Notes under the pieces: generated by a model
The model's input: only the letters and a program-made list of their open reading frames with translations
Told to the model about the DNA's origin: nothing
Database searches by the model: none
Program-made: the position numbers and the translations under genes
Part shown: one piece after another, positions 45,037 through 61,260 of the stretch
Layout of the letters: each line of letters opens with the position of its first letter
Position numbering within the stretch: the stretch's first letter is position 1
Source: Halolamina sp. CBA1230
Lineage (GTDB): Archaea; Halobacteriota; Halobacteria; Halobacteriales; Haloferacaceae
Reading direction: 5' to 3'
DNA length: 64,000 nucleotides
Assembly (NCBI RefSeq): GCF_002025255.2
Contig: NZ_CP054587.1
Span: forward strand, 2,790,001 to 2,854,000

Positions 45037-45912
45037 CTACGGCTCGCCGCGCCGGTACGCCTCGATCGCCGGCTCGTACCCCTCGTACACCGACGGGTAG
45101 GTCAGGTCGTACCCCAGTTCGAGCAGTCGGTCGTTCCGGCAGCGCTTGTCGCTCGCGACCCGAAGCGCGGCCGACCCGGACAGCCCGGCCAGCCGCTCTT
45201 CGACGGTCAGCTTCTCCGGTTCGGCGGCGCCACAGCGCTCGGCCAGCCAGTCCGCGAACGCCCAGCGGTCCACGGGGGTGCCGTCGCTCACGAGCACCGT
45301 CTCCTCGCGGGCAACGTCCTGGGTCAGGAACCACGCCAGCGCGCCGGCGGCGTCGTCGCGGTGGATCGAGTTCCGCCAGCCCGCGGTCACCGAGTCGAGA
45401 TAGGAGTCGATCCGGTAGCGTCCGGGGCCGTACAGCCCCGCGAACCGCGCGACGGTGCCGTCGATCCGACTTCGGTGGACGATCGCTTCGGCCTCGGCGA
45501 TGACGGCGGCTTTCGGCCGGTCCGGATCGACCGGCGTCGACTCGTCCACCCAGTCGCCGTCGTGATCGCCGTACACCCCGGTGGTCGACGTGAGGAGCAG
45601 TCGCTCGGGGGACGATTTGCGCCCCTCGAACGCCGCGACGACCGCGCGGAGCCCGTCGACGTAGAGCGAGCGAGCGTCGGACACGCTCCCGCGTCCCGCC
45701 GAGGCCGAGAAGACGGCCGCGTCGGCGTCGGGCAGCGTCGAAACCGCGTCCGGATCGGTCAGATCCGCCTGTACAGCCTCGATCCCGTCGTCCTCGATGG
45801 CCTCGACGCTCGACGCCGAGCGGACGACGCCGATCACGTCGTGCCCGCTCTCGAGCAGCTGCCGGCCGAGTTCGCGGCCGACGTAGCCACAGCCGAGGAT
45901 CAGGACGCGCAT
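45037..45912 (-). CDS. NAD-dependent epimerase/dehydratase (extended SDR)
   Basis: A 291-residue protein starting at ATG 45912 with the Rossmann motif VLILGCGYVGRELGRQLL at the N-terminus. It contains TSTTGVYGDHDGDWVDESTP, where the SDR catalytic Ser-x10-Tyr-x3-Lys pattern would be; I do not see a clean YxxxK. This resembles atypical SDRs of the YeeZ/TDP-sugar type. The start overlaps the upstream stop by 1 nt (TGATG), so the two genes are coupled. Confidence 0.82.
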   Translation of the reverse strand: MRVLILGCGYVGRELGRQLLESGHDVIGVVRSASSVEAIEDDGIEAVQADLTDPDAVSTLPDADAAVFSASAGRGSVSDARSLYVDGLRAVVAAFEGRKSSPERLLLTSTTGVYGDHDGDWVDESTPVDPDRPKAAVIAEAEAIVHRSRIDGTVARFAGLYGPGRYRIDSYLDSVTAGWRNSIHRDDAAGALAWFLTQDVAREETVLVSDGTPVDRWAFADWLAERCGAAEPEKLTVEERLAGLSGSAALRVASDKRCRNDRLLELGYDLTYPSVYEGYEPAIEAYRRGEP

Positions 45913-46337
45913 CAGCGTCGGGCGTTGACGTACGCCTGGATCGCGGCGAACTGTTCCAGCGTGGTCGGCAGGCGCCCCTCGATCGCCTGCTGGATCTCCT
46001 TCGCGTCGAGGTCGAGATCTGTCTCGCGGGCGACGGTGTCCACGTCGACGACTGCGGTGGTCATCCCCATCAGGACGTGGTCCCGAGCCTCCCACGCGAT
46101 ATCGTCGGCGTCCGGAGCGCCTTCCGCCAGCGACAGGACCTCCGAGGCCTCCTCGACGGTGAGTTCGGGGTGGTCGCCCGCCTCGATCGCTTCGACGGTC
46201 GCTCGGTCGAGGCCGGTCCCGCCCACGACGGTGTCGGCGCCGAGTTCGGCGACGACTGTCGCGAGCTCCTCGAAGTAGGCCGCGTGGAACGCCTCGGGCG
46301 AGGCCTCCTCGTCGGCCTCGACTGCATCGTACAGCAT
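45912..46337 (-). CDS. DUF5791-like haloarchaeal protein
   Basis: A 141-residue acidic protein, ATG 46337, with helical segments FHAAYFEELATVVAELGADT, ATVEAIEAGDHPELTVEEAS and AKEIQQAIEGRLPTTLEQFA. The latter two resemble short DNA-binding or helical-bundle repeats, but the evidence is thin. It matches a family I know as DUF5791. It is coupled by a 1-nt overlap to the SDR gene downstream. Confidence 0.68.
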   Translation of the reverse strand: MLYDAVEADEEASPEAFHAAYFEELATVVAELGADTVVGGTGLDRATVEAIEAGDHPELTVEEASEVLSLAEGAPDADDIAWEARDHVLMGMTTAVVDVDTVARETDLDLDAKEIQQAIEGRLPTTLEQFAAIQAYVNARR

Positions 46338-46372: not shown

Positions 46373-49300
46373 TTACTCCGTGCCGGTAGCAGTCTCGCAG
46401 TCGCTCCCGCCGTCGACGCCCGGACAGGGCCACCCCGGAGACTGCTCGTCCCGGGCCCCGTCCACGTCACCGACGCCCGGCATCCCGGGTGGAACGACCG
46501 CGACGACGGTCGTCGACGCCCCGAAGCCGACACGGTCGCCGCGGCCGAGCCGTTCGCGGTCGCCGTCCCCGTCCACGTCGAGCCGCACCGTGGAACCGTC
46601 CCGAACGTATCGAACGGTCCCGCCACTGCCGTCGGGTGCGACCCCTCGCGCACGAAGGGCGAAACGCTGATACTCGCCACGGACGGTGACGCTCCACGCA
46701 TTGGCCGTCGCGATCCAGGTGTACGGCGGGGGTGCGACGGGAATCCCGGCCGGCAGCCGCGAGGCGCCGGTCAGCTTCCGGGTCGCCCTTGCGCTGGCGT
46801 TCTCCAGGCTCCCGCTCACCTGCTTCCGGACGGTTTCACGGGCCGCCTGCTGGACCATCGAGGCGGTCCGGTTGGTCGTCGCCGCCGGCACCCCGGTCTC
46901 GCGTTCGGCGCTCAGTTCGCGCAGGCGGACCCGAACCCGAACGCTCGCCTCGTCGGCCGTCGCCGTGTCGACGCCGTGCGCCCGCAGTACGGCACCGAAC
47001 GCCGACCCGTAGCTGCCGTTAGCCATCGCCTGTGCTCGGTGTCCCAGTGTCGGCCACTGATCGCGGGCGTCGACGACTGCTGCGCGACACGTGGGCCGAC
47101 CGACGCCGGTTCCGTTCGTCGCGGCGTCACAGACAGCTCGCTCGACTTCCCCGACCGAGCTCCTGACCGCCGCGGCCAGTTCGTCGCGGTTCGCCGTCAA
47201 CGCCGTCGACTTCCCCTCGGGGTCGGGTGCGGCGGTCCGGTTCGCGGCGATCAACGTCCCCGCGGCCGTGCCGAGGCGAACCTGGCGGCTCCCACCGCCC
47301 AGTATCGTGTCGACGATCCCGGAGGCGGCGTCGCCGTACGGGAGCGCGACCCAGTTCGTCGTCCGCGCGGTCAGCGGGTGAGCAGACTCCCCCGCCGGCA
47401 CGCTGGGGGCCTGCTCGTGGTCGATCGACTGGAGCGTGAGGTACGCGGGCGACGCATCGGGCGTGATCACGAGGTCGTCCGGACCGCCGGACGCCACGTA
47501 CGCGTCGGCGGGCTGCTCGCTCGCCTCACCGCGTCCGAGTTCGATCAGCTGCGAGATCCTCGCCGTCGCTCGGTCACCGAGCTCGTCCCGGTAGTCGACG
47601 TTCCGGTCGCTGGCTTTGCTAGCGCGCGCGTCCAGTTCCGCGAGCACGCGGTCGAGATACGCCGCGCGAGCGGCGACCCGTGCTCTGTCGGCGGCGCCGT
47701 CGTACGTCGCCGGCGCGTCGAGCAGTGCGGACCGCCGCTCCCGGAGCTCAGCCGCCAGTCGGGCTGGCGCGTTCGCGTCGCCGCTGGCGACTGCCGCCCG
47801 CGGGATCGACACCGAAACGTTCGCGACCTCGCGGCGGAGCTCCCGAAGATCGGCGGCGACCCACGCGTCGAGATCCGCCGGCCGCGTCGCGGTGATGGTT
47901 CGCTGTCGGACGAGCGCGTCCGCCCCGCCGTTCCCCGTTGCGACCCGTTCGGCAACGCTGTCGATGCCGCCGTTGGCGTCGAGCAGCGCGTCAGCCGCCC
48001 GTTCGCGCGCACCGTCGAGGTTCGGCCCGTCGAGGGCGCCGCCGGGCTCGAACAGCGGCTCGGTCGACCGCTCGGGCGCGGCGTCGGTCGGGGCGTACTC
48101 CGTGGTCACCTCCACCGCGACGCGGGCGGTCTCGGTCCACTCCGCGGTAGTCGTTCGGGACGTTCCGTTCCGCGTCCAGTGTCGCTCGACGGCGTAGTGG
48201 ACCGTCACGTCGAGAACCGTGTCGACGACGGCCTCGGAGGAACCGGTCGACACGTCCTCGACGGACGTTCGCTCGGTCGTCCGTGCCTCCACGAGCGTCC
48301 AGTTCTGTAGTCGCGGTTTCGGTTTCGACTCGCTGGTCCGACTGAGTACCGAGACCCGGAGGTCACTCCGGACGCGGTAGCTTCCGGCTGTCGGCGTCCC
48401 CTCGACCGAACCGAGGTACGCCCGGTCGGCAGCGGCGTCGGGGGACACGTTGACCGGCGGGGCGTCCGGTCGTTTCGGGGCGAACTCCCCCGACGTCGAC
48501 TCCCTCGTGGCGCCGTCGACGGCGTTCGGGTTCACGAGCGCTTTCGTCGCGGTCGCAGCGTCGCCGTGACGGCCGCCGAGCACGTCGAGGACACCGACTT
48601 TCAGGGTCGCGATGTCGACTGCGCGTGCACCCGCAATGTCGTGGCGACCGAACGCGGCACGCTGCTGGGCGAGCAGCACGGCGTTGGCCGACAGTTCGAC
48701 GTGGCGGTTCCCGAGCACGTTCCGGATCGGCGCGCCGGCGTAGCGACCGTACCCCCGTGCCATCGCCACCGCAGTCAGGCGGGTCGTCAGCCCGCGTGCC
48801 AGCCCCGGCCCCTCGAGCGCGCCGCGGTTCAGCCGTCGCTCGTACGCTCGGGCACGCTGGTGGAGCGCCAGCGCCGGCGTCTCGACGGTGAGGCTGACGT
48901 TCCGTTGCCGCTGGGCGACCGTTCGCCCGTCCTCCCGGGCACTCACAGTGAGGTTCCGGACCGTCACGCGCATCGCCGCGCCGCCGTCGACCGGTGTGAC
49001 CTCGACGCCGGATTTCGCCTCCCGGAGCGAGGCGGTCGAGCCGTCGACCGCGGGGAGTCCGACGGTCGCTCTGACGCCGCCCCGCTCACGGGAGAGTTCC
49101 GAGACCGATTCCCGTGCGGCGACCGCGATCCGGAGCCTGAGCGCGTCGACGAACGGCCGGGAGTCGTTCAGTTCCCGCCCCGCCGTAGTGTTCGCGGGAG
49201 TGGTGACCGGCGTCCGAATCGATTCGCGCGCGGCGTCGCGAACCGCGTCCCAGAGCGCGGGTCGCGTGTCGCGGCTCACGCTGTCCATCGCCGCTGCCGC

Positions 49301-49435
49301 GGGGCGCTCGATCGACGGCTGTGCGCGGTCCGCGATCCCCGTCGCGTACACGGAGGCGCCGAGCAGCAGCAGGACGCCGACGAGCGCGAACGGCACCCGG
49401 GCACGGTCGTCGCTGGCGAGGCTCACGGCGACCAT
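46373..49435 (-). CDS. Large membrane-anchored protein of the pilus-like operon (DUF7286-like)
   Basis: A 1020-residue protein with one N-terminal transmembrane helix (FALVGVLLLLGASVYATGIA) and a very long outer part. The outer part has repeated Asn-rich segments with many potential N-glycosylation sites (NVSLT, NRTAS, NGTSR), TadE/TadG-like helical stretches and a C-terminal domain near PPYTWIATANAWSVTVRGE followed by a short Asp-rich tail. It is the terminal gene of an operon and overlaps its neighbour by 13 nt. I relate it to the haloarchaeal family DUF7286. It could be the minor tip or surface subunit of a pilus-like filament, an inference from context. Confidence 0.75.
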   Translation of the reverse strand: MVAVSLASDDRARVPFALVGVLLLLGASVYATGIADRAQPSIERPAAAAMDSVSRDTRPALWDAVRDAARESIRTPVTTPANTTAGRELNDSRPFVDALRLRIAVAARESVSELSRERGGVRATVGLPAVDGSTASLREAKSGVEVTPVDGGAAMRVTVRNLTVSAREDGRTVAQRQRNVSLTVETPALALHQRARAYERRLNRGALEGPGLARGLTTRLTAVAMARGYGRYAGAPIRNVLGNRHVELSANAVLLAQQRAAFGRHDIAGARAVDIATLKVGVLDVLGGRHGDAATATKALVNPNAVDGATRESTSGEFAPKRPDAPPVNVSPDAAADRAYLGSVEGTPTAGSYRVRSDLRVSVLSRTSESKPKPRLQNWTLVEARTTERTSVEDVSTGSSEAVVDTVLDVTVHYAVERHWTRNGTSRTTTAEWTETARVAVEVTTEYAPTDAAPERSTEPLFEPGGALDGPNLDGARERAADALLDANGGIDSVAERVATGNGGADALVRQRTITATRPADLDAWVAADLRELRREVANVSVSIPRAAVASGDANAPARLAAELRERRSALLDAPATYDGAADRARVAARAAYLDRVLAELDARASKASDRNVDYRDELGDRATARISQLIELGRGEASEQPADAYVASGGPDDLVITPDASPAYLTLQSIDHEQAPSVPAGESAHPLTARTTNWVALPYGDAASGIVDTILGGGSRQVRLGTAAGTLIAANRTAAPDPEGKSTALTANRDELAAAVRSSVGEVERAVCDAATNGTGVGRPTCRAAVVDARDQWPTLGHRAQAMANGSYGSAFGAVLRAHGVDTATADEASVRVRVRLRELSAERETGVPAATTNRTASMVQQAARETVRKQVSGSLENASARATRKLTGASRLPAGIPVAPPPYTWIATANAWSVTVRGEYQRFALRARGVAPDGSGGTVRYVRDGSTVRLDVDGDGDRERLGRGDRVGFGASTTVVAVVPPGMPGVGDVDGARDEQSPGWPCPGVDGGSDCETATGTE

Positions 49436-50274
49436 GTCCGGACGGAGATCTCGACGGTTCCCAGTTCGAGCGACGAAGCGGCGTCGGCGGGGGTTTCGGC
49501 GCCGTCGCGGAGATCGCTCGCGACGCGTTCGGCCATCGCGGTCGCGACCTTCCGGTTCGCCGCACGCGTATCCCCCCGCTCGATCGCTGCGGCTGTCTCG
49601 ACGCCGTAGCGGTCACTCACCTGTCGATATCGGTGTCGAACGAGGTCGTCGAGCGGCGCGTCGTCCGCGAGCGCCAATCGCCCCTTGTCGGGAGGGAGAA
49701 GCCCAGCCACCAGCGAGTCCGCGACGACACGGCTGAGGCGGGTGAACCCACCCTCGCTCGCCGCGGTCGATGCGTTCGCCGGCGGATCGACGCCGCTGGG
49801 CGCGCGAACCGTCGCCGCGTTCACGTCGACGTCTTCCGGCGGCGTCGGACCGACGGCGAACGAGCGACTCAGGTGTACACCGGGGAACGGCTCCCAGCGG
49901 ACGACGACCCGCGTTCGGGACGGCAGCTGGTCTGCAACCGTCGTCCGGACTGCGGCCGCGAACCGCTCGTTGGTGCCGGTCAGCGGCTCGGCGTCGACGC
50001 GGACGGTTCTGACCGCCGCGTCAGCCAGCAGCGAGGCGAGCGTGCCGTGGGCGACCCGTTCGAACTCGGGGCTCGTGTCGGCGTCGCCGTCACCGTTCGG
50101 CACCGGCAGGAGCGTGTACGGTACGTCCACGGTCGTCGCCGCCAGCGTCTCGGCGACGGCGTCGGCCCGATCCACCTCGCCGGCAGCGGTTGGTGACGGC
50201 GCACTGGTCACCGTCACCGCGGCCGCACTGATCAGGAGCAGACAGAGGCAGGCGTCGAGCGCGGTCGCCGTCAT
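49423..50274 (-). CDS. Membrane-anchored protein of the pilus-like operon (DUF7284-like)
   Basis: A 283-residue protein with an N-terminal transmembrane helix (ALDACLCLLLISAAAVTVTS) and a long outer part. The outer part contains the segment WEPFPGVHLSRSFAVGPTPP, predicted as a beta-rich domain, and a helical C-terminal third. It overlaps the upstream gene by 4 nt and the downstream gene by 13 nt, so the operon is tightly coupled. I relate it to DUF7284. Role unknown. Confidence 0.72.
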   Translation of the reverse strand: MTATALDACLCLLLISAAAVTVTSAPSPTAAGEVDRADAVAETLAATTVDVPYTLLPVPNGDGDADTSPEFERVAHGTLASLLADAAVRTVRVDAEPLTGTNERFAAAVRTTVADQLPSRTRVVVRWEPFPGVHLSRSFAVGPTPPEDVDVNAATVRAPSGVDPPANASTAASEGGFTRLSRVVADSLVAGLLPPDKGRLALADDAPLDDLVRHRYRQVSDRYGVETAAAIERGDTRAANRKVATAMAERVASDLRDGAETPADAASSLELGTVEISVRTWSP

Positions 50275-50678
50275 CGATGCACCACCACGCGGAGCCAGCC
50301 CGACTCCACCCGGCCGGGAGCGATCCGTACCGGAACCCGGCGCCCGGACGACTGCGTCTCGACGTTCGGCGTGGGGGCGTCACCAGCCGTCCAGTGCTGC
50401 GATCCGGCACGGAGATCGACCCGAACGGTCCACCCGTCCGGCCCGGCGTCGACAGCGCTCTCGAGTCGGGCCGGCGACGCGACGCCGGCTGGTGCGACGG
50501 CGTCGTGAACCCGGGACAGCGTCGGCTCGGCGATCTCGTGGTCCGCGGTCGGAACGACCCCGGCGAACACCGTCGCGTACAGCGACAGCCCCAGCCCGAC
50601 CGCCGCGACGGCGACCAGCGCTGCCGTCGGGGAAGCCTGCGCGCGTTCAGGCGCCGACGAGCGTGACGCGGTAGCCAT
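50271..50678 (-). CDS. Pilin-like protein (DUF7285-like)
   Basis: A 135-residue protein. Residues about 13-36 (AQASPTAALVAVAAVGLGLS) form a pilin-type N-terminal helix after a short charged leader, and the rest is a small beta domain (WTVRVDLRAGSQHWTAGDAP). A class III prepilin cleavage site is not obvious, so it may be a pseudopilin. It overlaps the upstream gene by 32 nt and the downstream one by 4 nt. Confidence 0.72.
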   Translation of the reverse strand: MATASRSSAPERAQASPTAALVAVAAVGLGLSLYATVFAGVVPTADHEIAEPTLSRVHDAVAPAGVASPARLESAVDAGPDGWTVRVDLRAGSQHWTAGDAPTPNVETQSSGRRVPVRIAPGRVESGWLRVVVHR

Positions 50679-51111
50679 CCCAACTCACCTCCCTGACGGC
50701 GATCCGATCCGACGTGATCCAGCCCGGCTCACGCTCCCGTGCCGTCGCGACCGCCTCGCGGAACGCGTCGCGGTCCCGGAACACTGTCCGTGGCGATCGG
50801 CCACGGAGAACGCGCCGGAGCGGGCCGTCGACGACGGCCACGACGGGCCCGAACGCGAACGTCGCCCGCGCGGTGCCGCCGTCGTTGCGCATCGCGACCC
50901 CGTGCGGGCGGAGCCGGACAGCCTCGGCGGCGTGATCGTGTGTCGCGCTCGCCGGCGCGTCGCCGGCTGCGACCGCGTCGACGGTGGCTGCGACACCCGC
51001 TGCGTCCGGTGCGGGGCGGGCGGGGAGCGATCCGGCGACGGCGAGAAACGCCGCCGCGGCGACCACGAGGCCGGCGTGCAGCGCCGGCGAGTCGACCGGG
51101 GGTCCGATCAT
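50647..51111 (-). CDS. Membrane-anchored protein of the pilus-like operon (DUF7283-like)
   Basis: A 154-residue protein starting at ATG 51111, with one N-terminal helix (LHAGLVVAAAAFLAVAGSLP) and a beta-rich outer part ending SWDGYRVTLVGA. It starts 39 bp after the T2SF stop. A TTCAAGT box 25-31 nt upstream (51136-51142) could provide a separate internal promoter. Confidence 0.7.
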   Translation of the reverse strand: MIGPPVDSPALHAGLVVAAAAFLAVAGSLPARPAPDAAGVAATVDAVAAGDAPASATHDHAAEAVRLRPHGVAMRNDGGTARATFAFGPVVAVVDGPLRRVLRGRSPRTVFRDRDAFREAVATAREREPGWITSDRIAVREVSWDGYRVTLVGA

Positions 51112-51135
51112 GGACAGCCCTGGTCCCGGTTTCGT

Positions 51136-51142
51136 ACTTGAA
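51136..51142 (-). promoter_or_regulatory. TATA-like box inside the pilus-like operon
   Basis: Minus-strand TTCAAGT lies 25-31 nt upstream of ATG 51111. It may allow the last four genes to be transcribed separately from the T2SF and ATPase genes. Confidence 0.4.
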
Positions 51143-51150
51143 CCCTCGCC

Positions 51151-52902
51151 TCAGAGCACCGCCCCCGCGGCGACGACCGCCGCGACGTACGCCGCCGTCG
51201 CGGTGGGCAGCGCGAGCCCGATCCGGTAGCCCAGGAGCGATCGGTCGATCCCGCGCTCCAGCGCGGTCGCCAGCCCGGTCAGGATCGCCGCGAGCAGCAG
51301 CACGTAGACGCCGACGACCGGGCCGAGCGAGGGGGGTCCGAGTGTGGTCGTTGCCGTCGACGTACCGCCTCCGCCGAGTGCCCCGCCGACACCGCCCGCG
51401 TCCGCCGGAATCCGTCCGACCATCGCCACGGAGACGCCGCCGACCAGCGGCCCGAACAGCGCCGCGGTGTTGGACAGCGTCCCCGTGATCGCCGCCAGTT
51501 CGCGCCGTGCCTCGCGCTCGACTCGGCGGAGTTCGCGGAGGTGGTCGCCCGCTGCCACGAGCGCGTCCCCCGCTGGGGGTCCTTCCGTCGCTGCGAGTCC
51601 GAACAGTCGGCCGGCGTCACGAGCGCGAGGGCTCGGCACGTCCTGGAGTGCGCCGAACCGCCCGAAGAAGGCCTTCTCCGTCGAGAGTCCAAGCTGTTCC
51701 CCCCGCTCGACGGCGGCTCCGAGCAGGTCGCCCGTACCCCCGGGGAGCGCCGCCGCCGCCTCCTCGAGCGCCTGTTCGACGGCGGTTCCGTCGGCGACGC
51801 GCCGACCGACCAGCGCGAGCGCGTCCGGGAGCCCCGACTCCGTTTCACGGACCTGCTTCCGGAGCTCCCTCGCGGGTGCGAACAGCCAGAGCAGTCCGGC
51901 ACCGACACCGGCACCGACGGCGACGACGGGCACAGCCCACGGCAGCACGGGCAGACAGCCTGCCCCCGCGATGACGCCCACGAACACACCGAGTGCGGCG
52001 GCGCTCCGCCGGCGGTCGGGAACGTCGGGGTGGTCGCTGTCGATCCGCGGCGGAGGGAACGAGATCGGTCGCCGTGCGAGCAGCCAGCCGCTCGCCGCGA
52101 GTAGGCCCACGGGAAGGAGCAGATCGTACAGCACTGCAAGCGTGCCGACGCCGATACTCACGCCCGCGAGCCGTGCCGCGGGGAGGACCCCCACGAGCGC
52201 GAGCGGGAGCAACACGCCGAACGCGTACAGCCCCGTCAGCGGCGCCCGGATATCGCCGGCGAACGCCGCTGCGCGCTCCTCGACGCCCGAACGCACGGCC
52301 GAGAGCGCGCGCTCACAGCCCCGTTCGCGTGCGTCCGCGGGGGCGTCGGCGGCGTCGGCGACCAGCGCCGCGGCGCGTTCGATCCCCGGTGCCGTCTCCC
52401 CCCACGCTGCAGCGAACGACGCCAACCCCGCATCAGGCGTTCCGCGCGCCCGTCGAGCGTGCTCCCGCAAGGACGCTGCGAGATCGCCGTCGCCGGACTG
52501 GCCGGCGAACGAGACCGCCCGTTCCAGGCTCGGCTCCACCCTGAGTCGCAGCGTCAGCCGACCGAACAGCGCCGGCGCGTCACCGACTGCACGAGTGCGG
52601 GCGAGTTCGGCGGCGGCGACCGGAACGTTTCGAGCGGCGAGCGGCGGGCCAACACCGAGGCCGATCGCGAGCGGGAGCAGCGGGAACGCGCCTGTCGCGA
52701 GCACCGCAACGATACCGACGACTGCGATGACGCTCCCGACAGCCTCGCCCGCGGCGACTAGCCGGGACGCGTCCGGCCAGCCGAGTCGATCGCAGGCGTC
52801 GATCAGCTCGCCGTCGACGTCGGGGTCCCGTGGCCACGACGACGATAGCTCGTCGACGAAACGAGTGGCACGCTCCCGTCGACCCCGCGACGGGGCTACC
52901 AC
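51151..52902 (-). CDS. Type II/IV secretion membrane platform with two T2SF domains (TadC/PilC-like)
   Basis: A 583-residue integral membrane protein starting at GTG 52902. It has two T2SF (GspF/TadC) domains, one at residues about 110-230 (RLRVEPSLERAVSFAGQSGD, then ERGCERALSAVRSG) and one at about 360-510 (ESGLPDALALVGRRVADGTAVEQ cut, then RRELAAITGTLS), each followed by hydrophobic helices. This is the platform protein of archaeal type IV filament systems (FlaJ/PilC/TadC type). It overlaps the ATPase stop by 7 nt. Confidence 0.85.
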   Translation of the reverse strand: MVAPSRGRRERATRFVDELSSSWPRDPDVDGELIDACDRLGWPDASRLVAAGEAVGSVIAVVGIVAVLATGAFPLLPLAIGLGVGPPLAARNVPVAAAELARTRAVGDAPALFGRLTLRLRVEPSLERAVSFAGQSGDGDLAASLREHARRARGTPDAGLASFAAAWGETAPGIERAAALVADAADAPADARERGCERALSAVRSGVEERAAAFAGDIRAPLTGLYAFGVLLPLALVGVLPAARLAGVSIGVGTLAVLYDLLLPVGLLAASGWLLARRPISFPPPRIDSDHPDVPDRRRSAAALGVFVGVIAGAGCLPVLPWAVPVVAVGAGVGAGLLWLFAPARELRKQVRETESGLPDALALVGRRVADGTAVEQALEEAAAALPGGTGDLLGAAVERGEQLGLSTEKAFFGRFGALQDVPSPRARDAGRLFGLAATEGPPAGDALVAAGDHLRELRRVEREARRELAAITGTLSNTAALFGPLVGGVSVAMVGRIPADAGGVGGALGGGGTSTATTTLGPPSLGPVVGVYVLLLAAILTGLATALERGIDRSLLGYRIGLALPTATAAYVAAVVAAGAVL

Positions 52903-54830
52903 GGTGTCTCACCCGTACCCGAACACTCGTCGCTTTCCTCGGCCCGGATCGCCGCCGGTCGCGTGACGCCGTCGGCCGCGAGCGAGCGCAGGTGGTCGGC
53001 CCGTGCGTCCAGCGTCGCCAGCGTCTCACCGTACCCCTCTCCGGGCACCGTGAGATCCGCGAGCAGGCTGCTCTCGCCGCGGTCGAGCCGTCCGGTCGGT
53101 TCGAGGTCGTCGCCGTCGAGCGCGAACAGTGGCCGGAGTTCGGCCCCGCCGGCGACCGACTCCACCTCCTCGATCGCGACCGCGCGCCGCCCCCGCTCGG
53201 TGTCGGCGACGGTGAGCACGAACCCCGTCGCGGCGAACGCGGACTCGCTCACGCCGAGATCCTCGGTCATCCTGGTCTGCACCGCGTCGGCGCCGTCGCC
53301 GTGGACCGTCCCGAGAACCGTCCCCGAGGCGGCGCCGACGCGCATCGCCTCGTACAGCGTGCCAGCCTCCTCGCCCCGAACCTCACCGACGACCAGCGCC
53401 CCTTCGCCGAGGCGGAGCGCTGTCCGGAGCGCGGACGCGGGGCTCGTCTCGCCGGTCTCGTCGTCGCCGCGGGCGACCCGGAGCGACTGCACGTCGCGCC
53501 CCGCCGCCCGGAGCGCTGCGGCGGGGAGTTCGGGCGTGTCCTCGATCAGTACTGTCCGTGTCCGGCGGGGCAGCGCCCACAGCAACGCGCCGAGCGTCGT
53601 CGTCTTCCCCGCACCGCGGGCGCCGGCGACCAGTCCGGTCCCGCCGCGCTCGACCGCCAGCGAGAGCAGTGCTGCCGCCCGCGGCGTCAGCGAATCGGTG
53701 GCGACGAGTCGGGGGAGCGTCCACGGCTCCGAGTCGTGGCGGCGGACGGCGAAGGCGGGTCCGGGCGAGAGCGGCCGCGTGACGCCGGCGATCCGGACCT
53801 GCTCGCGGTCGTCCGGCGGGCCGACGGGGAGCGTCGCGTCCACCTGTGGGCTCGCCCGCGAGAACGCGCGCCCGCTGGATCGACGGACCCGCGAGGCGAG
53901 CGTCCCGACTCCCTCCGGGGTGAGCCGGATGTTCGTCGGCATCGCTTCGCTGTCGACGACGACCCGGACTGGCGTCTCCGAGGCGGGCGCGGTGACGTAC
54001 ACGTCCGAGACACGGTCGTCCGCGAACAGGTCCGCGAGCACGCCGTTGCCGCGCGTGTGTTTCCTGAGCGTGGCCGAGAGCGCCGCTACCGGATCGTCGG
54101 CGTCGGCCACCTCACGTACGGCGCGAGCAGGGCCGAGATCACCCGTCTCCTCGGTCGTCGCCAGCCGCGCCGCCGCCGCGTCGAGCAGTTCGAACGCCCG
54201 CGTGTCGAACGACGCCGACGCAGGGGTGAGGTGGTACACGCCCGTCCCGGCCGCCGAATCGATCGCGTACCGCCGGACCGTTCCGCCGGTCGAAAGCTCC
54301 GTGGTGTCGCGCAGTCGCGCGTCGGCCGGCGGCCGGTGGTCGATCCCGACACGCGCGATCGTCGGGCCGTCGTGGGAACGCAACGCCGCCTCGTGATCGT
54401 CGGCGCGTTCGGCACCCGCCGCGAGCCCGGTTTCGGCAGCGAGGCGGCCCACCGGGCCGGCTCGGCCGGTCGCTTCGCGGGCAGCCCGCAGCGGCGCCGT
54501 CCGTGCGGTCGCGGCGATCTCGGCGTCGTGGTGTTCGGCCAGCGCAGCGAACCGGCCGGCAGCGTGGAGCAGACCGACGGCGTCGTCGTCGTACCAGCGC
54601 TCGTAGCCCGCCGATCGAACCCGAACGGCGTCGGCGTCCCGGTCGGCGAGCGCGTCGACCGCGGTCGCCCGACACGCCGGTTCGCTGGCGAGATCGCCGT
54701 CGCCCTGACAGTCGTCGGCGTCGATGCGGAGCTCGACGCGGTCCTCGACCCCTGTTCCGGCGGGTTCGGCGAACGACGGTCGGCAGCCACACGCGTCGTC
54801 GTCCTCGCCCCGCCAGGGAAGCAGTGACAT
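52896..54830 (-). CDS. Type II/IV secretion ATPase (TadA/GspE family)
   Basis: A 644-residue protein starting at ATG 54830. Walker A is GARGAGKT (403-410), the Walker B region is ALVVGEVRGEE (478-488) and the His box is GTVHGDG (507-513), so the motor core is complete. The first 130 residues are unusual: C14, C16, C41 and C53 (ACGCRPSF, DADDCQGDGD and EPACRATA) could bind a metal ion. It drives assembly of a type IV-like filament. A TTCAAG box lies 25-30 nt upstream. Confidence 0.9.
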   Translation of the reverse strand: MSLLPWRGEDDDACGCRPSFAEPAGTGVEDRVELRIDADDCQGDGDLASEPACRATAVDALADRDADAVRVRSAGYERWYDDDAVGLLHAAGRFAALAEHHDAEIAATARTAPLRAAREATGRAGPVGRLAAETGLAAGAERADDHEAALRSHDGPTIARVGIDHRPPADARLRDTTELSTGGTVRRYAIDSAAGTGVYHLTPASASFDTRAFELLDAAAARLATTEETGDLGPARAVREVADADDPVAALSATLRKHTRGNGVLADLFADDRVSDVYVTAPASETPVRVVVDSEAMPTNIRLTPEGVGTLASRVRRSSGRAFSRASPQVDATLPVGPPDDREQVRIAGVTRPLSPGPAFAVRRHDSEPWTLPRLVATDSLTPRAAALLSLAVERGGTGLVAGARGAGKTTTLGALLWALPRRTRTVLIEDTPELPAAALRAAGRDVQSLRVARGDDETGETSPASALRTALRLGEGALVVGEVRGEEAGTLYEAMRVGAASGTVLGTVHGDGADAVQTRMTEDLGVSESAFAATGFVLTVADTERGRRAVAIEEVESVAGGAELRPLFALDGDDLEPTGRLDRGESSLLADLTVPGEGYGETLATLDARADHLRSLAADGVTRPAAIRAEESDECSGTGETPW

Positions 54831-54854
54831 AGCGCGGGTGGTCGCGCTCTCCCC

Positions 54855-54860
54855 CTTGAA
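54855..54860 (-). promoter_or_regulatory. TATA-like box of the ATPase gene
   Basis: Minus-strand TTCAAG lies 25-30 nt upstream of ATG 54830 and supports this start over the long open frame to 55067. Confidence 0.4.
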
Positions 54861-54892
54861 CTCTCGGGGAGCGTCGACGGGCAGTCCTTCGA

Positions 54893-55318
54893 CTACGTCG
54901 TCAGTCGAACGGTGACAGCGCGGCCGTCGTCGCCGTCGACGAGGCCGAGCGTCAACCGATGCTCCCCGGGCGTGCCGAACCGAACGGTCCCGTCGGGCAA
55001 CGCGAGCGGGAGTGTGAGCCGGCGCGTCCGGGTAGCGTCGTTCTGGAGCGTGTATCGGACCGCACACGCGGGCTCACAGCCGACGGCGAACGTGTCGACA
55101 CCGACAGCCACCAGCGATCCGGCTGGGATCGAGACGGTGACGACCCGCCGTGCGCCGGGATCGTCGGCGGCGAGCAGCGACGCCCCCGCACGCTCCAGTC
55201 GGCCGACGTCACGGTCGAGCCCCGCGGCTGTTCGGTCGGCCGCCGCCGACTCGACCGCTGGGAACGACGCCGCGAGCAGCGCGGCCGCAAGCGCCACCGC
55301 GAGCAGGGCTCGGATCAC
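54893..55318 (-). CDS. Exported or membrane-anchored protein (DUF7311-like)
   Basis: A 141-residue protein starting at GTG 55318 with an N-terminal hydrophobic segment (LLAVALAAALLAASFPAVES) that is a signal peptide or anchor. The mature part has a beta domain with C80 and C84 (FAVGCEPACAVRYTLQ), close enough for a disulfide. The start overlaps the upstream stop by 4 nt (GTGA). Confidence 0.7.
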   Translation of the reverse strand: MIRALLAVALAAALLAASFPAVESAAADRTAAGLDRDVGRLERAGASLLAADDPGARRVVTVSIPAGSLVAVGVDTFAVGCEPACAVRYTLQNDATRTRRLTLPLALPDGTVRFGTPGEHRLTLGLVDGDDGRAVTVRLTT

Positions 55319-55731
55319 CGGAGGTCGTGCAAGCGTTCGCGCAGCCCACGTTCGGCCGGTTCGTCGGCCTCGTCAGCCTCAGCGGCTGCGTCCGTGTCGG
55401 CAGACGCCGACAGCACTGCGATACTCTCGGCTTCGTCTCGGGGGACGGGAGTGTCGGCCTCGCCGAGGCGGCGCTCCAGCCGTTCGACCGCCGCGACGGC
55501 GGCGTCAGCGCGGCGTTCGACCGACTCGTTCACCGCGGAGACGCCCCCGAGAAACCCGCGGATCGACTGCACCGCGGCGTCGAGTTCGTTGAGTCTGGAT
55601 TCGAGCGTCTCGACCCGTTGTTCGAGATCATCGACGCCGTCGCTGTCGGCTCCGATTCGATCCCGCTCCCCGTCGAGTGCGCGCTCGACGGCTGCCAGCC
55701 GTCGTTCCAGCTCCGTGTCGCTGTCGGACAT
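55315..55731 (-). CDS. Coiled-coil protein, first gene of the pilus-like operon (DUF7310-like)
   Basis: A 138-residue protein starting at ATG 55731. Residues 5-60 form a coiled coil (ELERRLAAVERALDGERDRI, then LEQRVETLESRLNELDAAV), and the rest is an acidic linker ending in the amphipathic GLRERLHDLR. The gene is divergent from cetZ with 96 bp between starts. A role in organising the machine is possible. Confidence 0.72.
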   Translation of the reverse strand: MSDSDTELERRLAAVERALDGERDRIGADSDGVDDLEQRVETLESRLNELDAAVQSIRGFLGGVSAVNESVERRADAAVAAVERLERRLGEADTPVPRDEAESIAVLSASADTDAAAEADEADEPAERGLRERLHDLR

Positions 55732-55746
55732 GGGACGGGCTGGTCG

Positions 55747-55769
55747 CCCGATCGCTGATAAGTATCGGG
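55747..55769. promoter_or_regulatory. Inverted repeat over the DUF7310-like promoter
   Basis: CCCGAT (55747-55752) and ATCGGG (55764-55769) flank GATAAGTA (55757-55764), a minus-strand TATA-like box 26-33 nt before ATG 55731. It could be a regulator site. Confidence 0.4.
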
Positions 55770-55797
55770 ATGCAGGACACTCCTCAGGCGGGAGAAT

Positions 55798-55803
55798 CTT
55801 AAG
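55798..55803 (+). promoter_or_regulatory. TATA-like box of cetZ
   Basis: CTTAAG lies 25-30 nt before ATG 55828, so cetZ and the operon have separate promoters in the same 96-bp region. Confidence 0.45.
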
Positions 55804-55827
55804 GCGGGCCGGAACGAACGGGGAGCC

Positions 55828-56961
55828 ATGAAGACGGTCCTCGTTGGCGTCGGGCAGGCGGGCGGAAAGGTGACGACTGCACTGGCCGAGTACGACGACG
55901 AGATGGGGTTCCACGCGGTCCGGGACGCTCTCGCGGTCAACACCGCGAAAGCCGACCTCCGCGATATCCCGCTCGACACGGTGTTGATCGGCCAGGACGT
56001 CGTGAAAGGCCACGGTGTCGGCGGCGACAACGAACTCGGCGCGGAGGTGATGCAGAACGACGCCGACGAAGTGATGAGCGAACTGAGCGGCAAGATCGGC
56101 TCCAAGACGGAGGCGATCTTCGTCGTCGCCGGCCTCGGCGGCGGCACCGGCTCCGGCGGCGCGCCCGTACTCGCGAAGGAGTTGAGCCGGGTGTACGACG
56201 TCCCCGTCTACGCCATCGGCATCCTCCCCGGCCGCGACGAGGGGGCCTTGTACCAGGCCAATGCGGGGCGGTCGTTGAAGACGCTCGCCCGCGAGGCGGA
56301 CGCGACGATCCTGATCGACAACGACGCCTGGCGCGAAGCGGGCGACAGCGTCGCGGAAGGGATGGCCGCGATCAACGAGAGCATCGCGCGCCGGATCGGC
56401 CTGCTGCTCGCCGCGGGCGAACCCGTTGAGGACCGCTCGCTCGGACTTGGTGGCGGCGGACTCGACCGCGACGTGGCCCAGAGCGTCGTCGACACCAGCG
56501 AGGTGATCAACACGCTCCGGTCGGGCGGCTTGGCGGCAGTGGGCTACGCCGAGTCCGAAGCCAGCGACGACCCCGACGAGAACGTCAACGTCGTCACGAG
56601 CACGACCCGACAGGCGCTGTTCACGGGGACGAGCCTCCCGAACGCGAGCGAGGCCGACGCCGCGCTGCTGGTCGTCGCCGGGCGCCCCGACACGCTCTCC
56701 CGCAAGGGCGTCGAGCGCGCCCGCTCGTGGATCGAGGAGGAGACCGGCAGCATGCAGGTCCGCGGCGGCGACTTCCCGCTCGACACCGACAAGATCTCCT
56801 CGCTGGTGCTGCTGAGCGGCGTCGAACGCTCCGACCGCGTCCAGGAGTTCATGAACCGCGCCGCCGACGCGCAGGCCGAGGCCGAGCAGCGCGACGAGGG
56901 CCAGCGCAAGCGCGACGCCGCCGACGCGTTCCAGAACGACGAACTCGACGACCTCCTCTGA
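55828..56961 (+). CDS. cetZ: Tubulin/FtsZ-superfamily protein, CetZ type
   Basis: A 377-residue protein. The N-terminus MKTVLVGVGQAGGKVTTAL carries the Q-A-G-G-K version of the nucleotide loop typical of CetZ, unlike the GGAGG of FtsZ. The tubulin signature GLGGGTGSG is at residues 102-110, and ILPGRDEGALYQANAGRSLK lies in the core. CetZ1 controls rod shape and motility in Haloferax; paralogues have unclear roles. The acidic C-terminal tail ends FQNDELDDLL. It is divergent from the pilus-like operon. Confidence 0.93.
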   Translation: MKTVLVGVGQAGGKVTTALAEYDDEMGFHAVRDALAVNTAKADLRDIPLDTVLIGQDVVKGHGVGGDNELGAEVMQNDADEVMSELSGKIGSKTEAIFVVAGLGGGTGSGGAPVLAKELSRVYDVPVYAIGILPGRDEGALYQANAGRSLKTLAREADATILIDNDAWREAGDSVAEGMAAINESIARRIGLLLAAGEPVEDRSLGLGGGGLDRDVAQSVVDTSEVINTLRSGGLAAVGYAESEASDDPDENVNVVTSTTRQALFTGTSLPNASEADAALLVVAGRPDTLSRKGVERARSWIEEETGSMQVRGGDFPLDTDKISSLVLLSGVERSDRVQEFMNRAADAQAEAEQRDEGQRKRDAADAFQNDELDDLL

Positions 56962-60068: not shown

Positions 60069-61226
60069 TCAGTTCACGTCCTGGAGCTGGTCGGGCGAGG
60101 TGCCGCGCTGGGCGGCCTCGCCGCCGCCGTAGATCTGGGGGGACTCCACCCCAGTCACGACGATCATCGTGCGCATCCGGCCCTCGATCTCCTCGTCGAC
60201 GGAGGTGCCCCAGATGATGCGCGCGTCGGGGTCGATCCGGTCGTAGATCTCCTCGACGACGCCCTCGGCCTCGCCGATGGACATGTCCGAGCCGCCGGTG
60301 ACGTTCACCAGCGCGGAGTTGGCGCCGGAGATGTCCACGTCCAACAGCGGCGACCGCAGCGCGGACTGCACCGAGTCCTCGGCCTTCTCCTCGGTGTCGG
60401 ACTCCCCGAGGCCGATCATCGCGACGCCACCCTTCTCCATCACGGTACGGACGTCGGCGAAGTCGAGGTTGACCAGCCCGGGCTTGGTGATCAGTTCGGT
60501 TATCCCCTTGACCGAGCGCATCAGCACCTCGTCGGAGACCTTGAACGCCTGCTTGACCGGCAGCTTCCCCACCGCGTCGAGGAGGCGATCGTTCGGCACG
60601 ACGATCACGGTGTCGGAGACGTCACGCAGCCGTTCGAGGCCCGCCTCGGCGTTCGTGCGCCGGACCTCACCCTCCGCGGTGAACGGCGTCGTGACGATCG
60701 AGATCGTCAGCGCGCCCGCGGCCTGGGCGGCCTTGGCGACGACGGGTGCCGAGCCCGTTCCGGTGCCGCCGCCGAGCCCGGCGGTGACGAACACCATGTC
60801 CGAGCCGGCGATGGAGTCCTTGATCTCCTCCTGGGACTCGATGGCGGCCTCCTCGCCGACCTGCGGGAGCGAGCCAGCGCCGCGACCCTGCGTTTTCTCC
60901 TTGCCCATCAGGATCTTCGTGTCGGCCTCGATGGAGACGAGGTGCTGGACGTCGGTGTTCGCGGCGACCAGCTTCGCGCCGTGGATCCCCTCCTCGTGCA
61001 TGCGGTTGACGGTGTTGCCGCCGGCGCCGCCGCAGCCGACCACCGTGATGTTGGTCTTGAGGTCCTGCAGGACGTCCTGAAGCTCCTCGTCGGTCATCTT
61101 CCCCGACGAGGGTGTCTCGCCGCCGGTCTCCTTCTCGGCCGGGCTCTCTCCCTCGGCCTGGGCGTCGGGCTGCTCGTCGCCCTCGCCCTCGGCCTCGTCG
61201 ATCGCCTCCTCTACGATGGAGTCCAT
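60069..61226 (-). CDS. ftsZ1: Cell-division protein FtsZ1
   Basis: A 385-residue FtsZ starting at ATG 61226. An acidic N-terminal extension of about 55 residues precedes the GTP-binding core: [15 protein letters not shown], the signature [12 protein letters not shown] (150-161) and the T7-loop region [11 protein letters not shown]. The C-terminal end is [10 protein letters not shown]. In Haloferax FtsZ1 and FtsZ2 have separate functions in Z-ring assembly; the order ftsZ1-secE-spt5 is typical of FtsZ1. Confidence 0.97.
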
Positions 61227-61235
61227 TTGACCAGG

Positions 61236-61260
61236 GGTATTAGGCGGAGCCTATTGACCT
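61236..61260 (-). promoter_or_regulatory. Promoter region of ftsZ1
   Basis: An imperfect inverted repeat TAGGC-GGA-GCCTA (61241-61253) sits 15-27 nt upstream of ATG 61226, overlapping the TATA-like minus-strand AATAGGC. It may be a regulator site or simply the core promoter. Confidence 0.35.

Follow-up and report, generated by a model that had tools for sequence, protein, structure and literature searches.

The 64,000-nucleotide (nt) stretch of the Halolamina sp. CBA1230 genome analyzed here, hereafter the window, to whose positions all coordinates refer, carries on its minus strand, from 55731 to 46373, an eight-gene operon that is a further copy of the published pil-2 (pilB2/C2) machine of haloarchaea. 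Its nature as a pilus-like machine is well supported by the gene families present, their order and conservation, the prepilin leaders, the intact ATPase motifs and a prepilin peptidase match elsewhere in the genome. We regard it as likely that this type IV pilus-like machine has long occupied the site beside cetZ2, that it has repeatedly been lost from there, and that the tie of CetZ2 to the machine is not obligatory. Three points are new with respect to earlier accounts: the machine and CetZ2 are separable, deletion has left remnants of the machine, and some of its subunits are leaderless.

Organization of the locus and its published counterparts

The genes of the operon and its surroundings are given below with their family matches (aa, amino acids).

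55315..55731, minus strand: DUF7310 coiled-coil protein, 138 aa, operon gene 1 (Pfam PF23991, 2.4e-24)
54893..55318, minus strand: DUF7311 protein, 141 aa, with a predicted signal/anchor helix at the N-terminus (Pfam PF23993, 1.2e-39; hydropathy)
52896..54830, minus strand: PilB2-type secretion ATPase, 644 aa, with a four-cysteine N-terminal segment (PF00437, 2e-20)
51151..52902, minus strand: PilC2-type membrane platform, 583 aa, about seven hydrophobic segments (T2SSF in homologues)
50647..51111, minus strand: DUF7283 protein, 154 aa, with a single helix and no prepilin leader (PF23954, 1.1e-45)
50271..50678, minus strand: DUF7285 pilin-like protein, 135 aa, class III-type leader with ERA at its end (PF23956, 2e-34)
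49423..50274, minus strand: DUF7284 single-helix protein, 283 aa, leaderless in the window's family (PF23955, 6.6e-88)
46373..49435, minus strand: DUF7286 large surface protein, 1020 aa, class III-type leader before VPFALVG (PF23957, E 0, 1078 bits)
55732..55827: divergent intergenic region, 96 bp, in which one TATA-like box precedes cetZ2 by 29 nt and another precedes DUF7310 by 31 nt
55828..56961, plus strand: cetZ2 (PF21011, 3.3e-60)
45912..46337, minus strand: DUF5791 gene, downstream, possibly co-transcribed (PF19104, 2.3e-48)
45037..45912, minus strand: putative NAD-dependent epimerase-like gene, named from its own sequence and a position matching the published epimerase

All eight minus-strand genes that a sequence-only reading of the window had listed were recovered. 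Hydropathy supports the four single-helix proteins and the N-terminal helix of DUF7311; the coiled-coil assignment of DUF7310 comes from Pfam, and no membrane helix was found by hydropathy in DUF7310 or in the ATPase. The packing, described as overlapping throughout, does overlap at five of the seven junctions (4, 7, 32, 4 and 13 nt); gaps at the other two, of 62 nt between DUF7311 and the ATPase (ATG at 54830) and of 39 nt between the platform and DUF7283, rule out an all-overlapping arrangement. The gene run extends past DUF7286 across a 35-nt gap to DUF5791, which overlaps the epimerase-like gene by 1 nt, and both genes may lie on the transcript of the operon. The prepilin peptidase said to be missing from the window has no match there, the single match of the type IV prepilin peptidase family in the genome (PF01478, C1:1875038) lying outside it; archaellum genes were looked for in the window only through the T2SSE, T2SSF and peptidase searches.

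The operon had been called uncharacterised, which holds for its function only: the operon and its cetZ linkage have been in print between 2015 and 2023, and its novelty is ruled out by Losensky 2015 (PMC4292770), Makarova 2016 (PMC4858521) and Brown & Duggin 2023 (PMC9856176). In Hbt. salinarum R1 the pil-2 genes OE1347R-OE1332R are co-transcribed and pilB2 is 8.5-fold up in attached cells (PMC4292770). Brown & Duggin, with 41 species analyzed, describe a pilB2/C2 regulon adjoining cetZ2 in Haloferacales and Halobacteriales, and an arCOG04674 gene and an epimerase that stay near cetZ2 whether the regulon is present or not (PMC9856176); judged by its position, DUF5791 would correspond to arCOG04674. 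The literature is inconsistent on the clade of PilB2, which is 4C for the Hfx. volcanii protein in Legerme & Pohlschroder 2019 (PMC6491452) and 4F on the reading of Makarova 2016 (PMC4858521).

The secretion motor

The TadA/GspE-type ATPase proposed from the sequence lies above the PF00437 cut-off, and its closest solved chains are 2oap (a type II secretion system protein), CpaF and FlaI; its top NCBIfam match is the TadA family TIGR03819, at 119 bits and under the cut-off. Walker A is intact in 150 of 150 homologues, and the CxC..C..C motif of the N-terminus is kept in 144 of the 150, making this segment of the ATPase (52896-54830, minus strand) a possible metal site. Of the five T2SSE matches in the genome, four are secretion-type ATPases, this one included, and the other is an ATPase of the PRK13764/PINA type.

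For the adjoining membrane protein a double-T2SF platform had been claimed. The platform part stands through its homologues, of which 7 out of 12 match T2SSF (best 5.9e-7), the window's own protein having no Pfam T2SSF match and a sub-threshold genomic match of 14.7 bits; the two-fold repeat was not demonstrated, the two halves aligning at E 0.48 in an internal profile comparison. No match in PHROGs was obtained for the platform, DUF7285 or DUF7283.

Blocks of DUF7286 with no motor nearby occur in 14 genomes, and 13 of these encode this type of ATPase at some place in the genome (E up to 2.3e-72, with further paralogues starting from 1.5e-28), thus tying subunits and motor functionally. Two DUF7286 blocks per genome, at least one of them without a nearby motor, are present in G140 (L111/L112), G076 (L119/L120) and G115 (L122/L123), which suggests that one motor may serve several subunit sets.

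Pilin-like subunits

In a class III prepilin leader a charge is followed by G or A and this by a hydrophobic helix, and this rule was applied here. The description of such leaders in Makarova 2016 (PMC4858521) supports it. Among the four pilin-like proteins of the window only DUF7285 and DUF7286 have such a leader and are candidates for the prepilin peptidase substrates that the sequence-only reading proposed to look for; DUF7283 and DUF7284 lack it. The DUF7286 leader, R[GA]R-[VI]PFAL-like, is found in 89 of 101 rows by the strict pattern; of the 12 rows missed, seven have variants such as RALVP or RGHVP, four are decayed copies and one is in a wrong frame. Candidates for DUF7285 came from 160 of 176 loci, a few in wrong frames, and an R[GA]Q.EP-like leader is seen in most of these 160 rows; an iterative DUF7285 profile was contaminated by shadow reading frames and left out of the counts.

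The strict pattern R[GA].ST finds a DUF7284 leader in none of the 29 rows of the window's family (f1), as against 58 of the 68 rows from other families. Lysine or arginine before the helix is absent in all 29 f1 loci, and the window's DUF7284 starts at the ATG at 50274 with no earlier in-frame start. A relaxed pattern was not used, as 14 of the 29 f1 rows matched it in read-through residues before the start codon. Outside f1 the same residue count, which is affected by start-codon choice, gave 47 proteins with and 19 without lysine or arginine, and for DUF7286 its false negatives arise from GTG codons within the helix. For DUF7283, 139 of 170 rows could be scored and 31 could not, and in none of the 139 does either residue precede the helix.

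Structure prediction with AlphaFold2 gave for DUF7284 a confident model, with a predicted local distance difference test score (pLDDT) of 90.7 and a predicted template modelling score (pTM) of 0.83, the modelled fold being an N-terminal helix followed by an alpha/beta domain with a helical stretch preceding the last strand. The DUF7286 model is confident in parts (pLDDT 78.9, pTM 0.62). Neither model matched the PDB at E <= 0.001; the best-scoring resemblances, of DUF7284 to ribosomal uS3 (Z 6.3, root-mean-square deviation (rmsd) 3.6, 81 aligned) and of DUF7286 to SecB (Z 6.0, rmsd 3.0, 92 aligned) were judged to be noise.

Conservation of the locus and of its linkage to cetZ2

DUF7286 is present in 187 of 242 sampled genomes of the class, which makes the pil-2 machine widespread in haloarchaea. 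From these and further DUF7286 matches 100 regions in 97 genomes, spread over genera, were drawn and combined with the window into a set of 101 loci. The machine, counted as complete where a single strand encodes the ATPase, the platform, DUF7284 and DUF7286, is found in 80 of them, all seven profiles used having matched in 77 of the 80, and the gene order is conserved well beyond chance. A divergent CetZ gene lies within 3 kb of 53 of the 80 complete loci (26/26 in the window's family, 27/54 in the others) and DUF5791 within 2 kb of 63. The search for shared gene order and cetZ linkage in other haloarchaea, suggested along with the sequence-only reading, gave a positive answer. In a set of 80 named loci, 73 are complete, 69 of these have sufficient upstream sequence, and CetZ is present in 49 of the 69. 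The nearest named relatives belong to Halolamina (DUF7286 identity 71-73%), linked loci were found in seven families of the sample, and the named Haloferax loci L159, L160, L162 and L165 carry the divergent cetZ2 and machine arrangement.

Relatives of DUF7286 exist elsewhere in the phylum (L231-L236, in other families; the control Methanosarcina acetivorans also matches), and a DUF7284-like gene adjoins them in L231-L233; this motor type is absent from the 19-20 kb regions fetched around such relatives.

Separability of CetZ2 and the machine

Complete machines unlinked to cetZ were found in 27 genomes; a CetZ2-like gene lies elsewhere in 19 of these (E up to 1.1e-126), and no such gene is present in the other 8, where the best match is 3.5e-93 or worse. 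Conversely, 20 of the 55 DUF7286-negative genomes were tested, and CetZ2-like genes are present in 14 of the 20 (E up to 1.8e-135, next match 4.7e-94). Since each occurs without the other, an obligatory partnership is not supported and the idea of a shared fate is weakened. Of the possible link between filament assembly and shape control raised in the sequence-only reading, the conserved adjacency stands, while the mutual dependence is weakened by these genomes and by the seemingly separate TATA-like boxes of Halolamina-type loci.

In 13 of the 14 machine-less CetZ2 genomes cetZ2 faces DUF5791, within about 1 kb in 11, and the epimerase is present in 12; one genome lacks both DUF5791 and the epimerase. 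cetZ2 and DUF5791 thus flank a gap that the machine either fills or vacates. The epimerase adjoins DUF5791 in loci with and without the machine. In two loci, L228 and L230, whose relatives have the machine, about 8 kb of other DNA fills this gap.

Loss of the machine from the cetZ2 site

Decayed ends of the machine remain in place between cetZ2 and DUF5791 in four genomes, which shows deletion there. L132 retains DUF7286 residues 761-992 at 83% identity and a DUF7310 match, and L133 residues 813-992 at 87% and a DUF7310 match; in L135 DUF7286 survives as two pieces, at 81% and 79%. In L134 both ends are kept and the middle is gone, DUF7310 persisting at 78% together with part of DUF7311 and DUF7286 residues 956-1009 at 87%. 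Artefacts, namely antisense cetZ and read-through into DUF5791, were excluded from these counts.

On a CetZ2 tree of 74 rows the presence and absence of the machine needs at least 10 changes, with absences inside machine-bearing clades; gain and loss are not separable on the tree and are separated, for the four genomes, by the remnants. Distances of CetZ and machine genes correlate at rho 0.34-0.58 over 48 loci (CetZ-T2SF 0.58), those of the downstream epimerase more weakly (0.14-0.37), so horizontal exchange of parts may have occurred. Taken as a whole, the site suggests an old occupant of the cetZ2-DUF5791-epimerase arrangement that has often been lost.

The cetZ2 neighbor and the divergent promoter region

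The divergent cetZ gene reported across the 96-bp region was confirmed, and by sequence it belongs to the CetZ2 subfamily, scoring 487 bits against 4B45 and 319 bits against 4B46, which are CetZ2 and CetZ1 of H. volcanii, respectively (PMC9856176). Spacing between cetZ2 and DUF7310 is 84-96 bp in eight Halolamina-type loci, and by the pattern used a TATA-like box lies 29 nt before cetZ2 in 6 of the 8 and 30-31 nt before DUF7310 in 7 of the 8. Motif position, the sole basis of this reading, suggests two back-to-back promoters, the transcripts of which are probably both leaderless. In early biofilm of Hfx. volcanii, deletion of cetZ2 is reported to alter the length and the roundness of the cells (PMC10606840).

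An FtsZ gene (60072-61250, minus strand; 390 bits to the solved FtsZ chain 1w58) lies about 3 kb past cetZ2, and a tubulin-family match is similarly placed in the other four loci of genus g1, so that cetZ2 lies near ftsZ in this genus.

Proposed mechanism and alternative explanations

In the proposed mechanism, the prepilin peptidase of the genome would first cut the leaders of DUF7285 and DUF7286. By hydrolyzing ATP, the cytoplasmic ATPase would drive the PilC-type platform through conformational steps, and the platform in turn would pull helix-anchored pilin-like subunits from the membrane into a filament or a short pseudopilus. DUF7285 is the probable repeating small subunit and DUF7286 probably a large subunit at the tip or surface. 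The minor subunits would be DUF7283 and DUF7284, both incorporated unprocessed, and DUF7310 might act as a cytoplasmic adaptor. The role of the machine would most likely be surface attachment. A narrower version is offered tentatively: half of the pilin-like set would skip class III processing, with DUF7283 (leaderless in all scorable homologues) and DUF7284 (leaderless in the window's family) being unprocessed subunits of a tip or base complex, in a machine ancestral at the cetZ2 site and repeatedly lost rather than a mobile cassette. The two leaderless subunits make prepilin processing in pil-2 directly testable.

Several observations weigh against this account. Two of the four pilin-like proteins lack leaders, no PilA-type major pilin was recognized at the locus, and no pilin, pseudopilin or adhesin fold stood out for the DUF7284 and DUF7286 models, although this last result excludes nothing. 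As pilC2 carries an in-frame stop in R1 and pilB2 is interrupted in NRC-1 (PMC4292770), pil-2 is dispensable in some strains. No mutant or filament of a pil-2 system was found in the literature searched, the mutants named in the abstract of PMC4292770 being flaI and pilB1 and the genes studied in PMC6491452 pilB1 and pilB3. The modest mirror-tree signals and the weak epimerase-machine correlation make a great age of the machine at the site less certain.

The missing PilA-type pilin and the two leaderless subunits, together with a set of four pilin-like genes of which one is very large, would also suit a short pseudopilus, resembling a type II secretion system or a competence machine, that forms no extended pilus and whose push would carry a substrate, a surface protein or DNA through the envelope. 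However, the major pilins of the subclade are predicted from stand-alone genes elsewhere (PMC4858521), making their absence at the locus weak evidence, and no secretion substrate was identified here; we hold such a pseudopilus to be possible though doubtful. A third reading joins the machine and CetZ2 in a single functional unit, with polymers of CetZ2 scaffolding or positioning the machine; the sequence-only reading had proposed that filament assembly and shape control may be linked, and PMC9856176 treats such a unit as possible. It draws on the divergent adjacency, without exception in the window's family, on the CetZ-T2SF distance correlation and on genome G140, where the motor ATPase has a separate copy next to cetZ2; nevertheless, the unlinked machines in genomes without CetZ2, the CetZ2 genes of DUF7286-negative genomes and the separate TATA-like boxes of the window's genus make it improbable.

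Recent entry of the machine at the cetZ2 site as a mobile cassette, in line with the relatively recent acquisition suggested by Brown & Duggin 2023 (PMC9856176), would explain presence and absence at one fixed site, the persistence of the cetZ2-DUF5791-epimerase order without the machine and the machine copies away from cetZ2. We consider it quite unlikely, because the in-place remnants of four genomes record deletion, the absences are nested in machine-bearing CetZ2 clades (tree counts alone do not separate gain from loss) and linked loci extend across seven families. The pil-2 pilus-like machine as an old and often lost occupant of the site is accordingly the preferred interpretation.

Comparison with known systems

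Bacterial Tad pili comprise TadA/CpaF, TadB/TadC and TadE/F/G. The locus shares with them an ATPase nearest to TIGR03819 and both small and large single-helix subunits, the DUF72xx proteins being at most putative homologs of TadE/F/G, whereas no Flp, TadV or secretin was recognized in the operon. Subclade 4F, as set out in Makarova 2016 (PMC4858521), is marked by cysteines in the N-terminus of the ATPase, by a coiled-coil protein and by a neighboring gene like ftsZ, which correspond here to the N-terminal cysteines of the ATPase, to DUF7310 (possibly arCOG07564) and to cetZ2 as a member of the ftsZ family; it differs in its PilA-type major pilin, predicted elsewhere and not recognized at this locus. 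With pil-2 of Hbt. salinarum R1 the locus has in common the PilB2 ATPase (arCOG01818), the platform and pilin-like genes with leaders, which are co-transcribed there, a likeness of gene order and of arCOG as printed, not of alignment; the in-frame stop of pilC2 sets R1 apart. The pilB2/C2 regulon (PMC9856176) matches in arrangement, with a divergent cetZ2, and is read there as a relatively recent acquisition. Set against these accounts, an obligatory partnership of CetZ2 with the machine is not supported, and the remnants point to loss, not gain, in at least four genomes.

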